From NCBI RefSeq assembly GCF_003206715.1, contig NZ_PZJU01000010.1, positions 1 to 64,000 on the forward strand: a DNA stretch of 64,000 nt. The letters are read 5' to 3'. This DNA comes from Salinicola peritrichatus. Lineage in GTDB: Bacteria > Pseudomonadota > Gammaproteobacteria > Pseudomonadales > Halomonadaceae. Positions 13,816-52,571 of the stretch are shown here, in pieces. The notes under the pieces are model-generated. The model saw nothing but the letters and a program-made list of their open reading frames with translations, made no database searches and was not told where the DNA came from. Position numbers and translations under genes: made by a program. Every line of letters begins with the position of its first letter. The stretch's first letter is position 1.

Positions 13816-14738
13816 AACGTATTGAACCTGCGGACTTCGCGGCTCTTGTCGATCGAGCCATGGAAGATCCCAACCGTCGCGCGATGCGACCGGTGGTCGA
13901 AAAGGAATTGCTGCATTTCGATATTCTGTTCGCTCTCGATCGTGAGCGGTTACTCGAAGGGCTGACATTTCAAGGCGGGACATCATTGAGACTCTGCTAC
14001 GGCGCCCCGCGTTTCAGCGAAGATCTCGACTTCGTGGGTGGGACGGAGTTTACCCGTCAGGATGTCTCGCGCATCAAGACATGCATCGAGGACTATGTCA
14101 GCCGACGCTATCGACCGGAAGTCACCGTCAAGCAGCCGAAAACGCTCCGCGAAGATCCTCGCTATGCCGAAGTGAAAGTCGACAAATGGCAGATTGCCGT
14201 GACTACCGCACCGGCTAGACGCGACCTGGCCAAGCAGAAAATCAAGCTGGAGATCGCCAATATCCCGGCTTACACGCGGCAGGCAAACGGCTTGCAGCTA
14301 CACTACCCTTTCCTGCCGGACGGCTATACGGATCTGCTGATCCTCACGGAGACACTGGACGAGATCATGGCCGATAAACTGGTGTCGCTGGTCAACACTC
14401 AGCGCTATGTCCGCAACCGCGATATTTGGGATCTGCAATGGCTGAAGCAGCAAGGCGCGCAACCAGACGTCGAGCTGGTACGGAAGAAGCTGTCCGACTA
14501 CCGGATAACGGATTATACCGTCAAGGCACGACGCCTGATCGAACACCTCTCTGGAATCATCCAAGGCGCCGAGTTTCAGCAGGAAATGCAGCGATTCCTT
14601 CCGGCCGATGTGCTCGATCGAACCTTGAACAACCCGAAGTTTGCGGATTATCTGACACGGGAATTGAAGCGTACTTTCACGCAAATCGTCGACGCGCTCG
14701 AGGGGCAAAAACCAGCGGGGCCGGAATTCGTTCTCTAA
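13812..14738 (+). CDS. AbiEii/AbiGii family nucleotidyltransferase toxin
   Basis: Toxin of the AbiE abortive-infection module, a nucleotidyltransferase of the DNA polymerase beta fold. The core motif is clear near residues 53-76: FQGGTSLRLCYGAPR, then FSEDLDFVG, giving the GGTSLR and SXDLDF elements with two metal-binding Asp residues. Further conserved parts include LILTETLDEIMADKLVSL and RNRDIWDLQWL. At 308 residues it is full length. The TAA stop shares its last base with the first base of a long hairpin repeat, so that element marks the end of the gene. Confidence 0.9.
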   Translation: MKRIEPADFAALVDRAMEDPNRRAMRPVVEKELLHFDILFALDRERLLEGLTFQGGTSLRLCYGAPRFSEDLDFVGGTEFTRQDVSRIKTCIEDYVSRRYRPEVTVKQPKTLREDPRYAEVKVDKWQIAVTTAPARRDLAKQKIKLEIANIPAYTRQANGLQLHYPFLPDGYTDLLILTETLDEIMADKLVSLVNTQRYVRNRDIWDLQWLKQQGAQPDVELVRKKLSDYRITDYTVKARRLIEHLSGIIQGAEFQQEMQRFLPADVLDRTLNNPKFADYLTRELKRTFTQIVDALEGQKPAGPEFVL

Positions 14739-14880
14739 GAGGGTGTTTACAAAACAGGCGAATGAAGGCAAGACAAGGCGAAATCGACCGAACAAGCGCA
14801 GTTTACAAGTCGTAAATGAGCATTGTGAGGACGATTTCAACGCCGTATTGCCGAATGCAGCCCTTTTGTAAACACCCTCT
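14738..14880 (+). repeat. Hairpin repeat element, copy A
   Basis: 143-bp element bounded by a perfect 17-bp inverted repeat (14738-14754 AGAGGGTGTTTACAAAA; 14864-14880 its complement). Inner arms GGCGAAATCG (14777-14786) pair with CGATTT (14832-14837) plus CGCC (14841-14844) across a CAA bulge. The tip is GTTTAC-aagtc-GTAAATGAGCATT (14801-14824). The abiEii stop (14736-14738) and the cydC stop (TAG, 14881-14879) both use element-end bases. It may act as a bidirectional terminator. Confidence 0.85.
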
Positions 14881-16567
14881 AAGGATGTGACACGTCGCCC
14901 TCTAACCGCGTCCCCTCCGCACCGGGAACCAGCCGCCAGTAGCGGTCGCAGCGTGGCAGCGCCGCTTCGTCGTGGCCCAGCAACAGCGCCGTGCGCTCGC
15001 CCAGCCAATCGTCCAGCGTCGCCTTGAGCCGCTCGGCCGTGCCGCTATCCAGTCCGCTCAGGGGTTCGTCGAGAATCACCAGTGGTGAATCGCGCAGCAT
15101 CACGCGGGCCAGCGCCACGCGCCGCGCCTGCCCGCCGGAAAGTTGACGCCCCTGCTCGCCGATCCAGGTTTCCAGCCCCTGCGGCAGCGTTTCGGCCCAG
15201 GCCCTCAATTCGACCTGTTCGAGCGCCCACCACAGCCGCTCGTCGCTGGCCTCCGGCGCGCCCATGCGCAGGTTGGCCGCCAGGGTGTCGTGGAACAGCT
15301 CGCTGCGCTGGGTGAGATAACCGATGCGCGCACGCAGCGAGTCGGGATCGATGGTGGCGATATCATGCCCCTCGAAGGTCACGCTGCCGGCATCGGGATC
15401 GAAGGCGCGCACCGCCAGCTGCGCCAGGGTCGACTTGCCGCTGCCCGAGGTACCGACGATCGCCACCCGTTCGCCCGCGGCGAGCGTGAGTGTCAGGTCT
15501 ACGAACACCCGGCGCTCGCCATGGCGTACATCGACCTCAAGATACGCCAACGCGGGCGCGGCGCCACCGGTGGTCAGCGGCTCCCCGACGAGCGCGGGGC
15601 GCAGCGCGGTCTGCTCGTTCAGGCGCTCGGCTGAGCGTTGCGTCGCCCCGAACTGGACGAATGCCATCGGCAGGTTGCCCAGCCCTTCGCTGACGGCCAG
15701 CGTACCCAGCGCCAGCATGACCATCACCGGGCCGCTGACCGCGCCCTGCTGGAACGCCAGCAGTCCAAGCATCAGCACCAGCAGCGTGGTCGACTGGACG
15801 CCCAACGTCATCAGCGCGTTGCCCGCCGCCGTGCGCCGCCCCAGGCGGCGTTGATCGTCCAGCAGGATTCGCTCTTCGCGCCGCCAGTGCCGGCGATGGG
15901 TTTCCAGCGCGCCGTAAGCGGTCAATTCCGCCAGCCCCTCGATCTGTTCGATGGTACGCACGCGTAGCCGTTCCTGACGCTCGACACGGCGATGACTGGC
16001 ACGCCAGCCCCACCAGGCGCAGCCGAGCGTCACCGCCAGCCACAGCGGCAACAGCAACGCGAGAATGGCGATACCGGCGCTGGGCAAGAACGCCATTGCG
16101 AACAGCGCGAAGCCGACGATGCCGATCAACGCCACCAGCGGCGGTGCCAGCAGGCGCAGGTAGAGGTTGTCGAGCGTGTCGATGTCGGCCGTCAGCCGGT
16201 TGAGCCACTGCGAGGCACGCACCCGCGACAAGGTTCGCGCGTCGAGCACGACCAGGCCGCGAAACACCCGGCTGCGCAAGTCGGCCAGCAAGCGCAGCAC
16301 GGTGTCGTGATTATAGAGACGTTCGAGATAGCGGCTGACGGTCCGCGACACGGCGAAGAAGCGGATGCCGCCACCGGGGGCGAAGACATCCAGGTAGGCG
16401 CCGGTCATCGCCGCCACGGCGGTGGCGGTAATGAACCAGCCGGAGAGCGACAACAGCCCCAGCGCGCTGGCCAGGGTCGCCAGCATCAGTACGCCGCCCA
16501 GCAGCAGGCGACCTCGCCGCTCTTTCATCACGCCCAGCCAGGGCAACAGCGGGCTCAAGGCTTTCAT
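14879..16567 (-). CDS. cydC: Heterodimeric thiol ABC exporter subunit CydC
   Basis: ABC transporter half (membrane domain plus ATPase) that works with CydD to export glutathione or cysteine to the periplasm, needed for cytochrome bd assembly. The 562 residues have a six-helix N-terminal domain (about 1-310) with the CydC-like SGWFITATAV and RFFAVSRTVSRYLERL. The ATPase has Walker A GTSGSGKST (about 376), signature LSGGQARR and Walker B LVILDEP. It starts in an ATGA overlap with cydD and is last in the cydABDC operon. Confidence 0.93.
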   Translation of the reverse strand: MKALSPLLPWLGVMKERRGRLLLGGVLMLATLASALGLLSLSGWFITATAVAAMTGAYLDVFAPGGGIRFFAVSRTVSRYLERLYNHDTVLRLLADLRSRVFRGLVVLDARTLSRVRASQWLNRLTADIDTLDNLYLRLLAPPLVALIGIVGFALFAMAFLPSAGIAILALLLPLWLAVTLGCAWWGWRASHRRVERQERLRVRTIEQIEGLAELTAYGALETHRRHWRREERILLDDQRRLGRRTAAGNALMTLGVQSTTLLVLMLGLLAFQQGAVSGPVMVMLALGTLAVSEGLGNLPMAFVQFGATQRSAERLNEQTALRPALVGEPLTTGGAAPALAYLEVDVRHGERRVFVDLTLTLAAGERVAIVGTSGSGKSTLAQLAVRAFDPDAGSVTFEGHDIATIDPDSLRARIGYLTQRSELFHDTLAANLRMGAPEASDERLWWALEQVELRAWAETLPQGLETWIGEQGRQLSGGQARRVALARVMLRDSPLVILDEPLSGLDSGTAERLKATLDDWLGERTALLLGHDEAALPRCDRYWRLVPGAEGTRLEGDVSHP

Positions 16568-31363: not shown

Positions 31364-31846
31364 TCAGTGTTCGTAATCGACGATGAGCCGGCCGTGGGAG
31401 ACGACCGCCGTGCCCGAAGCAGTGATGGCCGGTCGCCGAAAGCGAAAACGAAACGCCTGGGTCGCGGAGCGCCCCTGAAAACGTTCGGTTTTCCCCTGCG
31501 TACTCGACAGCGCCACGCAAAGGCTACCTTGACAGAGCCATGCCTCGAGGGGCGAATTCGGCGCGCTGACGGTGAACGACCAGTGCACCCGCGTGATCAC
31601 GCCGGCATCGACGTGCGCGGGCGCGGCGACGGCAGCGCTCTCCAGCGGCCGCTCGCTGGCGGCGAGCGTCTGGCGCGGCAGCGTTGCCATCCAGCTGCCG
31701 GAAGCGGCATGCGCCGGCCCGGACGCAGTGAACGAGAGTGCAGCGAGCCAGACCCAGGCAATCAAGGCGTGCCAGCGCCTCAGAACCTGTCTACGATCTG
31801 CTGCGCGTCGGCCACACGTCGTTAAAAACACTTTCGGAATGCTCAT
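31364..31846 (-). CDS. flhE: Flagellar protein FlhE
   Basis: Periplasmic protein of the flhBAE set, reported in enterobacteria to act on flagellar export proton leakage. The mature part matches FlhE: GSWMATLPRQTLAAS near the start, then ITRVHWSFTVSAP, LEAWLCQGSLCVAL with the conserved Cys pair, and the C-terminal VVSHGRLIVDYEH. A signal peptide (LIAWVWLAALSFTASGPAHA) precedes it. The only in-frame ATG (31846) lies in the conserved tip of a hairpin repeat, and roughly the first 21 residues are encoded by that repeat. The original start may have been a TTG or CTG just before the hydrophobic segment. Confidence 0.82.
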   Translation of the reverse strand: MSIPKVFLTTCGRRAADRRQVLRRWHALIAWVWLAALSFTASGPAHAASGSWMATLPRQTLAASERPLESAAVAAPAHVDAGVITRVHWSFTVSAPNSPLEAWLCQGSLCVALSSTQGKTERFQGRSATQAFRFRFRRPAITASGTAVVSHGRLIVDYEH

Positions 31847-31938
31847 TTACCCCCCGTAAACTCGTACGCGAGCCCGGTCCTTTCCTCAAGTGTTTTTGCC
31901 TTGGTTGGCTCTAGCTCGCGAGATCGTAAACAGGTTCT
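31782..31938 (-). repeat. Hairpin repeat element, copy B (in flhA-flhE junction)
   Basis: 157-bp element with 18-bp outer arms at 31782-31799 and 31921-31938 (17 of 18 paired) and perfect 10-bp inner arms AAAAACACTT (31824-31833) and AAGTGTTTTT (31888-31897). The tip on the minus strand is GTTTAC-ggggg-GTAAATGAGCATT (31861-31838). The arms differ in sequence from copies A and C but pair with each other. It ends 6 nt from the flhA stop and contains the flhE start codon. Confidence 0.85.
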
Positions 31939-31943
31939 CACAT

Positions 31944-34028
31944 TCATGCTCCCCCTCCGATCGTCGTCGTGACGCGCAGGTTGCGGTCGTCGGGGATCTC
32001 GGCCTGGGACAGCACCACCAGCGATTTGATCTGGCGCCGCAGGAAGCGCGCCAGCAACGCCCGCAGCGAGTGCTGAACCACCAGCACGGTCGGCTCGTCG
32101 CGGCTCTGTTGGCGTTCGACCGCCGCCGCCGTCTGTTGCATCAGGGTTTCCGCCAGCCCCGGTTCCAGCGCCCCGCCATTGTTGAGCGCCTGGGTCAGGA
32201 CCTGCTCGAGCCGCGGTTCGAGGCCGATCACATGCATCGGCTCGCGTCCCGGGAACCATTGCTGGGTGATCGCCCGGCCCAGGGCCACGCGGACGATCGC
32301 CGTCAGTTCGTTGGCATCGCTCTGCTGCGGGGCGAATTCCGCCAGCACGTCGAGAATCGTGTGCATGTCGCGGATCGGCACGTCCTCGGCCAGCAGGTTC
32401 TGCAGAATTCGCTGTACGGTGGTCAAAGGCAGCAGCTTGGGCACCACGTCCTCGACCAGCGATTTCTGTTTCTCCGCGACCTTGTCCAGCAGTTGCTGCA
32501 CCTCGGCCCGGCCCAGCATGTCGCCGGCGTGTTCATGCAACAGGTGGTTGAGATGGGTGGCGATCACGGTACTCGCATCGACCACCGTGTAGCCATAGAT
32601 TTGCGCCCGCTCGCGCTGGGCGGTCTCGATCCAGTAGGCGGTCAGCCCGAACGCGGGGTCCTGGGTCGGTGTGCCGTCGATCGCGCCGGAGACCTGGCCG
32701 GGATCGATCGCCAGCCATTTGCCGGGAAACGCCTCGGCACGACCGATTTCGACGCCCTTGAGCGTGATCACGTAGGTATTGGGGCCGAGTTCCAGGTTGT
32801 CGCGGATGTGCACCACGGATGGCAGGAAGCCCACGTCCTGGGCGAATTTCTTGCGCACGCTCTTGATGCGGCCAAGCAGCTCGCCCTTCTGACGCTGATC
32901 GACCAGCGGGATGAGCCGATGACCGACCTCGAGGCCCAGCGTATCGACCAGTTGGACGTCGTCCCAACTCGCCTCCGGCGTCTCCTGAACCGCAGGCGGC
33001 GCCTTCGCCTCGACGGCCTGCGCCGCCTGCTGCTGGTCACGCCGCGACATCCACCACCCCAGGGCGCCAAGCACCACCGCGAACAGCAGGAAGACCAGGT
33101 TGGGCATCCCCGGGATCATTCCCAGCAGTGCCATGACACCAGCCGCCAGGAACATCACGCGGGCATTGTTGAACAGCTGGCTCAACAGTTGCTGGCCGAC
33201 GTCCTGATCGGTATTGACGCGGGAAACCGTGACGCCGGCCGCGGTCGAGATCACCAGTGCCGGAATCTGTGCGACCAGGCCGTCGCCCACGGTCAACAGC
33301 GTATAGGTGCGTGCGGCGTCGCTGAACGGCAAGCCGTGCTGGGCAACCCCGATGATCAACCCGCCGATCAGGTTGATCACCATGATCAGTAACCCGGCCA
33401 TGGCATCGCCGCGCACGAACTTGCTGGCACCATCCATCGAGCCGTAGAACTCGGATTCCTGGTTGATCTCGCTGCGACGGGCCCGTGCCTCCTCCTCGCC
33501 GATCAGGCCGGCGTTGAGATCGGCGTCGATCGCCATCTGCTTGCCGGGCATGGAGTCGAGCGTGAAGCGTGCGCCGACCTCGGCGATACGCCCCGCGCCC
33601 TTGGTGATGACCATGAAATTGATGACGACCAGGATGGCGAAGACGACCAAACCGACGGCGAAGTTGCCGCCGATCAGAAATTCCCCGAAGGCTTCGATCA
33701 CCTTGCCCGCCGCGTCGCCGCCCTCGTGCCCATTCATCAGCACCACTCGGGTCGAGGCCACGTTGAGCGACAGGCGCAGCAGCGTGGAGAACAGCAGCAC
33801 CGCCGGGAAAGCCGCGAAGTCGAGCGGCTTCTGGGTGAACATGCTCACCAGCAGCACCATGATCGACAGCGCGATGTTGAAGGTGAAGAACAGATCCAGC
33901 GCGAACGGCGGCAACGGCAGGATCATCATGGTCAGGATCATGATGATCAGCACCGGCCCCGCCAGCACCTTGAATTGCGAGTCGCCCGGCCAGTTACGTC
34001 GGCCGAACCACTGGGTGAGCGCGTTCAT
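31944..34028 (-). CDS. flhA: Flagellar type III export protein FlhA
   Basis: Core inner-membrane component of the flagellar export gate (694 aa). An N-terminal membrane region of about eight hydrophobic segments contains the conserved FHIPEP-type stretch ([31 protein letters not shown] as seen here begins at about residue 150). It is followed by the nonameric cytoplasmic ring domain (about 340-694), including [16 protein letters not shown] and [25 protein letters not shown]. The start overlaps the flhB stop (ATGA). The stop is followed within 6 nt by the copy B hairpin. Confidence 0.95.
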   Translation of the reverse strand: [694 protein letters not shown]

Positions 34029-52431: not shown

Positions 52432-52571
52432 GAGAATGCTGACAAACTACTGCGCTCGCCCATGCGGCGTTGAAATCCGCCTCAAAATGCTCATTTACTC
52501 TCTGTAAACTGCGCTTCTTCGGCCGATTTCGCCTTGCCTGGCCATCGCTCGTGACGTTTGTCAGCATCCTC
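52432..52571 (-). repeat. Hairpin repeat element, copy C
   Basis: 140-bp element with 16-bp outer arms (52432-52447 and 52556-52571, 15 of 16 paired). Inner arms of the GGCG-AAATCGGCC / GATTT-CAA-CGCC type are shared with copy A. The tip on the minus strand is GTTTAC-agaga-GTAAATGAGCATT (52509-52486). It lies between divergent fliD and the unrecognised gene at 52599, ending 28 nt before that gene's start. Confidence 0.85.

Follow-up and report, generated by a model that had tools for sequence, protein, structure and literature searches.

A putative IS1031-group miniature element at the flhA-flhE junction of Salinicola peritrichatus carries the apparent start codon of flhE

How can flhE still be read when a hairpin repeat lies at its junction with flhA? 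This question is raised by a contig of Salinicola peritrichatus, of which 64,000 nucleotides were analysed (the window). The first-pass annotation had described a mobile hairpin repeat that separates the two genes and provides the start codon of flhE. In this study, we determined the ends and copies of the repeat, rebuilt the junction without it, and followed the reading frames across it. The features of the locus, in window positions, are as follows.

31364-31846, minus strand: flhE as now read, 160 aa (PF06366), first 21 codons repeat-derived.
31780-31782, minus strand: target-site duplication TGA (coding strand), flhE-side copy.
31783-31937, minus strand: MITE-like repeat, 155 bp, within flhE, with the tip ATG on the coding strand.
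31783-31799, plus strand: terminal inverted repeat GAACCTGTCTACGATCT, 15 of 17 positions identical to the ISLrh inverted repeat.
31843-31947, minus strand: leader ORF of 34 codons and a stop codon, running from the putative native flhE ATG to the repeat tip, where its TGA (31843-31845) shares bases with the repeat ATG.
31844-31846, minus strand: repeat-encoded ATG, apparent present flhE start, with GGGGGG upstream.
31921-31937, minus strand: terminal inverted repeat GAACCTGTTTACGATCT, 14 of 17 positions identical to the ISLrh inverted repeat.
31938-31940, minus strand: target-site duplication TGA (coding strand), flhA-side copy.
31944-34028, minus strand: flhA, 694 aa (PF00771), with the Shine-Dalgarno-like GGAGGGGGA in its last codons, upstream of the native flhE start.
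31945-31947, minus strand: putative native flhE start ATG, overlapping the flhA stop TGA (31944-31946).

The junction repeat is flanked on the plus strand by TCA at both ends, which is TGA on the coding strand. The 157 bp originally assigned to it comprise the 155-bp repeat and one target base per end. The outer arms (31782-31799 and 31921-31938) are 18 nt long, inverted and 94% complementary, and a second, inner arm pair lies closer to the tip. The predicted RNA fold has an energy of -65.9 kcal/mol (z -5.85), which was equalled by 0 of 200 shuffles. No Rfam match was obtained for 31600-32100 at E up to 1, and no promoter-like site was detected at the junction (0.3 expected). A terminator scan (1.9 sites expected) gave a single terminator-like site, which lies outside the repeat.

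The same genome contains at least 54 pieces matching the junction repeat, with 40 of the 103 first-look candidates scored. Both ends were recognised in 34 of the 43 loci scanned (L001-L030 and L152-L159 supplied this set), with lengths of 140-229 bp and 17-bp inverted ends; nine loci without both ends (L028, L154-L156, and L160-L164) were left out of the count. The 3-bp flanks were identical in 22 of these 34 two-ended copies and non-identical in 12. Twenty-one of the identical flanks were TNA, and that of L023 is CTA. In an alignment of 16 short copies from this set of 34, at least one sequence had changed on both sides with pairing kept at 9 of 46 predicted stem pairs. The tip had been called invariant, and TAAATGAG was indeed identical in all 16 aligned copies. 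The repeat thus has the features that define MITEs: terminal inverted repeats, a target duplication and many dispersed copies below transposase size. On sequence grounds, these results confirm that a dispersed mobile repeat (MITE) was inserted at the flhA-flhE junction, as first proposed. The tip ATG was present at 32 of 35 loci (absent from L017, L028, and L152). Judged by this distribution it is a family-wide trait, not one made for flhE, so that the gain of flhE would be opportunistic.

A motif of core and tip, AGTTTAC-N-GTAAATGAGCA, was found in 18 of the 115 genomes examined from this order, the source genome included, and its reversed pattern had 0 matches in all 115. The motif occurs 13 to 17 times per genome, with a variable spacer, in G022, G078, G111, and G033, which belong to other families. 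In five Salinicola genomes (L066, L068, L069, L079, and L080), a copy lies beside apparently the same flank (catggcatca.cgactt.acgt), and some insertions therefore seem older than the species.

The ends of the repeat point to a particular group of insertion sequences. According to the consulted part of a 2025 paper, ISLrh (IS1031 group, IS5 family) has 17-bp inverted repeats GAACCTGTCTAGTATCT and a TNA target (PMC12016507). The identities of 15/17 and 14/17 listed above refer to this single published inverted repeat. As far as the excerpted ISLrh text goes, the two elements share the 17-bp inverted repeats, the TNA target and a 3-bp duplication, whereas ISLrh is 857 bp long with a transposase and the junction repeat is 155 bp long without one (PMC12016507). 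Its ends and TNA target place the junction repeat among the putative non-autonomous IS5-family (IS1031-group) miniature elements. A scan for the terminal inverted repeat in the draft assembly of the source genome gave 60 sites, with no IS-scale pair by eye. A transposase search of this genome, limited to the PF13340 model, detected one IS, which was rejected as the parent; its ends, GCTCTGTCTGAAAAAT, differ from those of the junction repeat and by eye match the L071 repeat subfamily instead. Among 10 relatives, the end scan gave matches in 8, all MITE-scale pairs or single ends (reversed control: one match per strand in G119). None of these scans gave an autonomous element with the ends of the junction repeat. 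A plasmid collection contained one Halomonas record with 74% identity over 71% of the repeat. Related repeats with a common core and tip and different terminal inverted repeats were observed at L071-L090 and in the window at 14736-14882 and 52432-52571. The L071-type ends are, by eye, those of the IS5-type element L121 in the same genome.

The junction was then rebuilt by removing the element and one TGA. The insertion point is flhE codon 3 (ATG AAT G^TG AGG, with TGA duplicated), and the rebuilt site reads GGAGGGGGAGC-ATG-AAT-GTG-AGG-CGC, in which the flhA stop and flhE start form ATGA. The predicted N-terminus of FlhE at this empty site is MNVRRWHALIAW, also given as MNVRRWHALIAWVWLAAL. A replacement of the native 5' end had been proposed. 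This was not borne out: nothing was deleted, only the residues MNV were displaced, and the native ATG is retained, where it now opens the 34-codon leader. Thus, no long native 5' end was replaced.

Other Salinicola genomes have junctions similar to the rebuilt one. A predicted in-frame start codon overlapped the flhA stop in 17 of 17 relatives, with twelve four-nt overlaps (7 ATG, 3 TTG, and 2 GTG) and five one-nt overlaps (ATG). Sixteen of these junctions were scored by script, and L043, in which the flhA match is split in two, had to be read by eye. The nearest N-termini among the relatives were MNRRRALASWR and MNLRRTLASWR. A BLAST search of the repeat against the 17 flhE loci found it absent from every junction, and MSIPKVF occurred in 0 of these 17 repeat-free junctions, which agrees with the expectation that repeat-free relatives have other N-terminal residues. 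The sole BLAST match in these loci was 23 nt long (L047:1883-1905), near the flhE 3' end; it corresponds to the right arm of the repeat and is a possible remnant.

We examined the reading frames through the repeat. Translation from the native ATG would give the leader MNVRTCLRSRELEPTKAKTLEERTGLAYEFTGGK, which stops at the tip TGA in an ATGA overlap with the repeat ATG, as at the rebuilt native junction. From the repeat ATG, the repeat contributes 21 whole codons and the first base of codon 22 to flhE, which agrees with the earlier estimate of about 21 residues from the repeat ahead of the signal core. A net 158 bp was inserted, which is 2 modulo 3; together with the -1 shift of the ATGA restart, this length leads to an exit in the native flhE frame. 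By arithmetic, one insertion phase in three preserves the frame. The statement that flhE has only this ATG holds within the first 45 codons in frame and fails beyond them, as a further ATG occurs downstream, in the part encoding the mature protein. The other in-frame candidate starts in this interval are GTG (codon 6), CTG (codon 22), and TTG (codon 28). Past the repeat, the frame is uninterrupted for 138 codons. FlhE matched PF06366 with an E value of 9.5e-15 over profile positions 11-105 of 106, consistent with its description as well conserved.

These results suggest a mechanism by which the insertion was tolerated. It is fairly probable, in our judgement, that an IS1031-group MITE split flhE codon 3 and that the ATGA restart in the repeat tip rescues the native frame; the insertion and the frames are read from the DNA, and reinitiation, export and cleavage are inferred from them. 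The junction repeat, a putative non-autonomous IS5-family miniature element, transposed into the third flhE codon, duplicating TGA. Ribosomes that complete flhA would, as they did before the insertion, start again at the native flhE ATG, translate the 34-codon leader into the repeat and stop at the tip TGA. They would then restart on the overlapping repeat ATG, aided by the GGGGGG just upstream. The product would be a preprotein with 21 repeat-encoded residues ahead of the signal core and an unchanged mature FlhE. An insertion in one phase of three leaves flhE in frame, which may be why the accident was retained. FlhE is described in the part of the source consulted as a Sec-secreted periplasmic protein and proposed rod-cap stabiliser; when it is lost, a fraction of the cells have periplasmic flagella (PMC13344023). 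The changed n-region could matter for FlhE, and its predicted hydrophobic core and AHA-AS region are native.

Termination-reinitiation appears to be the likeliest mechanism, if co-transcription with flhA is assumed. The leader TGA and the repeat ATG form an overlapping stop/start pair. Coupling at such pairs was observed with reporters in E. coli and Haloferax, and the Shine-Dalgarno contribution to it varied from none to essential and was often large, as given in the excerpted article (PMC6728339). The calculated anti-Shine-Dalgarno pairing was -10.7 kcal/mol at the repeat ATG and -11.2 kcal/mol at the rebuilt native start. The former was joint strongest among 32 copies, the remainder ranging from -9.7 to +1.3 kcal/mol. 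L006 has the same pairing energy and G-run with a tip frame of just 18 codons, so the G-run need not be an adaptation.

The hairpin over the start codon had been suggested to lower or regulate FlhE. In the folding model (windows of 180-320 nt), the opening energy at the repeat ATG was 13.8 kcal/mol with the hairpin intact, compared with 20.7 kcal/mol at the rebuilt native start. It fell to 10.6 kcal/mol when the 5' arm was removed. The mean unpaired fractions were 0.53 (hairpin intact), 0.40 (5' arm removed), and 0.25 (rebuilt native). Since removal of the 5' arm decreased both the opening energy and the unpaired fraction, the folding results are mixed. The folding calculations speak against simple occlusion of the flhE start by the hairpin, and together with the pairing energies they lend no support to a lowering of FlhE by this route. 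The 34-codon leader and the -65.9 kcal/mol hairpin could still reduce FlhE.

The same calculations bear on other explanations. The repeat ATG might be used by 30S subunits that bind anew at the G-rich Shine-Dalgarno in front of it, with the leader merely melting the hairpin or doing nothing. The pairing of -10.7 kcal/mol and the moderate opening energy of 13.8 kcal/mol with an intact hairpin are consistent with this route; however, the ATGA overlap reproduces the 4-nt geometry of the rebuilt native junction and of 12 of 17 relatives, and we consider fresh binding unlikely. That the insertion silences or strongly cuts flhE, leaving the open frame as a recent relic, is quite improbable: there is one genome only for this species and the hairpin is long, but the 138 open codons past the repeat, the nearly full-length PF06366 match and a predicted start region no more occluded than the rebuilt native one argue against it. 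A near-cognate start at or after the repeat end, by which the repeat residues, including MSIPKVFLTTCGRR, would never be made, is highly implausible, because, although CTG 22 and TTG 28 exist in frame and 3 of 17 relatives have an in-frame TTG overlapping the flhA stop, the upstream pairing is weak (-3.2 kcal/mol for CTG and -5.6 kcal/mol for TTG) and TTG 28 would drop the basic residues preceding the hydrophobic core.

Termination-reinitiation at the tip would make this locus a clean example in which a flagellar gene acquired a new start and preprotein front from a mobile element, with nothing deleted and the pre-insertion state recoverable. It would also give a simple rule for MITE tolerance in an overlapping gene pair, namely a TAAATGA tip and a net length of 2 modulo 3. 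Start-codon donation was considered as a general property of the repeat and was rejected: among tip frames of at least 60 codons, L021 is, besides flhE, the only one in frame with a Pfam gene. Ten of the 28 tip-ATG copies (30 copies examined) had a tip frame of at least 60 codons past the repeat. That of L021 extends in frame into a PMT_2 gene, whose own ATG is intact directly after the duplication, and eight long tip frames had no Pfam match (L002, L007, L011, L016, L018, L022, L024, and L030). Two further open frames, at L161 and L016, looked antisense by eye.

We also investigated where the other copies lie. In 18 of the 34 two-ended copies, the 3-bp flank at one end served as the in-frame stop codon of an ORF with 149 codons or more. 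At a 100-codon cut this was so for 222 of 2190 flanking TNA sites (p about 6e-10). Spurious ORFs and TNA sites within coding sequence are part of this control, and relative to sites where insertion is tolerated the enrichment is therefore lower than p suggests. The stop-codon flank lay at the same element end in 18 of 18 copies, an orientation that does not depend on the TNA control. Flanks were identical at both ends in 15 of the 18 (the exceptions are L002, L153, and L157; L023, with its CTA flank, belongs to the 18), and the stop at the gene end is regenerated because of the target duplication. Pfam matches were obtained for 16 of these 18 ORFs (none for L007 and L152), including what we take, from the matches, to be murA-, metF-, parC-, tilS-, and rapA-type genes. 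A search with the tip motif found 23 further copies in the same genome, most with other ends, 17 of them with recognisable ends. An ORF of at least 100 codons ended within 8 nt of the boundary in 11 of these 17, an uncontrolled count in which 14 allowed offsets give more chance matches; 9 were at the same end as the 18 and 3 at the other, one being in both counts. The flhE copy does not fit this pattern: its target lies just past the flhA stop, and its orientation is opposite. In the window, a sister copy at 14736-14882 with ends AGAGGGTGTTTACAAA lies at the stops of two convergent ORFs, with TAA duplicated and both stops kept.

One core with several terminal-repeat types, many at stop codons, suggests that retention at 3' ends concerns the core rather than the transposase. 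We tentatively raise the idea, which is rather doubtful at present, that the core (AGTTTAC-N-GTAAATGAGCA tip) is a portable gene-end module and, in the opposite orientation, a stop-restart cassette (TAAATGA). If true, the TAAATGA cassette can interrupt the junction of two operon genes without shutting off the downstream one, as at flhE. With a single core that carries various terminal repeats and lies on stop codons mostly by the same end, it would become directly testable whether bacterial MITEs are retained at gene ends for a function.

Searches of literature text with the tip string and its complement gave no relevant title among the matches listed, and no listed title on MITE or IS elements states a placement at stop codons. 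The word Salinicola was absent from the literature matches listed; as these are a fraction of all matches, earlier work on start codons carried by MITEs may have escaped notice. Signal-peptide fronts derived from repeats, and MITEs fused in frame to genes, have already been published, as the excerpts of two articles state (PMC2759123, PMC10969869). For the enterobacterial RU-2 repeat in YPO1552 (Delihas 2007, PMC2759123), the text as excerpted describes no stop-restart overlap or displaced native start, and the phrase "start codon" has 0 occurrences in it. Rickettsia palindromic elements are, like the junction repeat, short palindromes fused in frame to genes. In the consulted part of the review they are in-frame fusions inside ORFs, whereas the junction repeat ends the frame that enters it and opens another (PMC10969869). 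The Chunjie MITE of Geobacter likewise lies within an operon; the same review, in its excerpted part, says that one phosphate-uptake operon copy was disrupted, whereas the title it cites says that the operon structure was undisturbed (PMC10969869). ATGA gene pairs, as described in the available part of PMC6728339, resemble the flhE junction in having a stop/start overlap with an upstream Shine-Dalgarno; in contrast to those pairs, the overlap here is borne by a mobile element and is additional to the native one.
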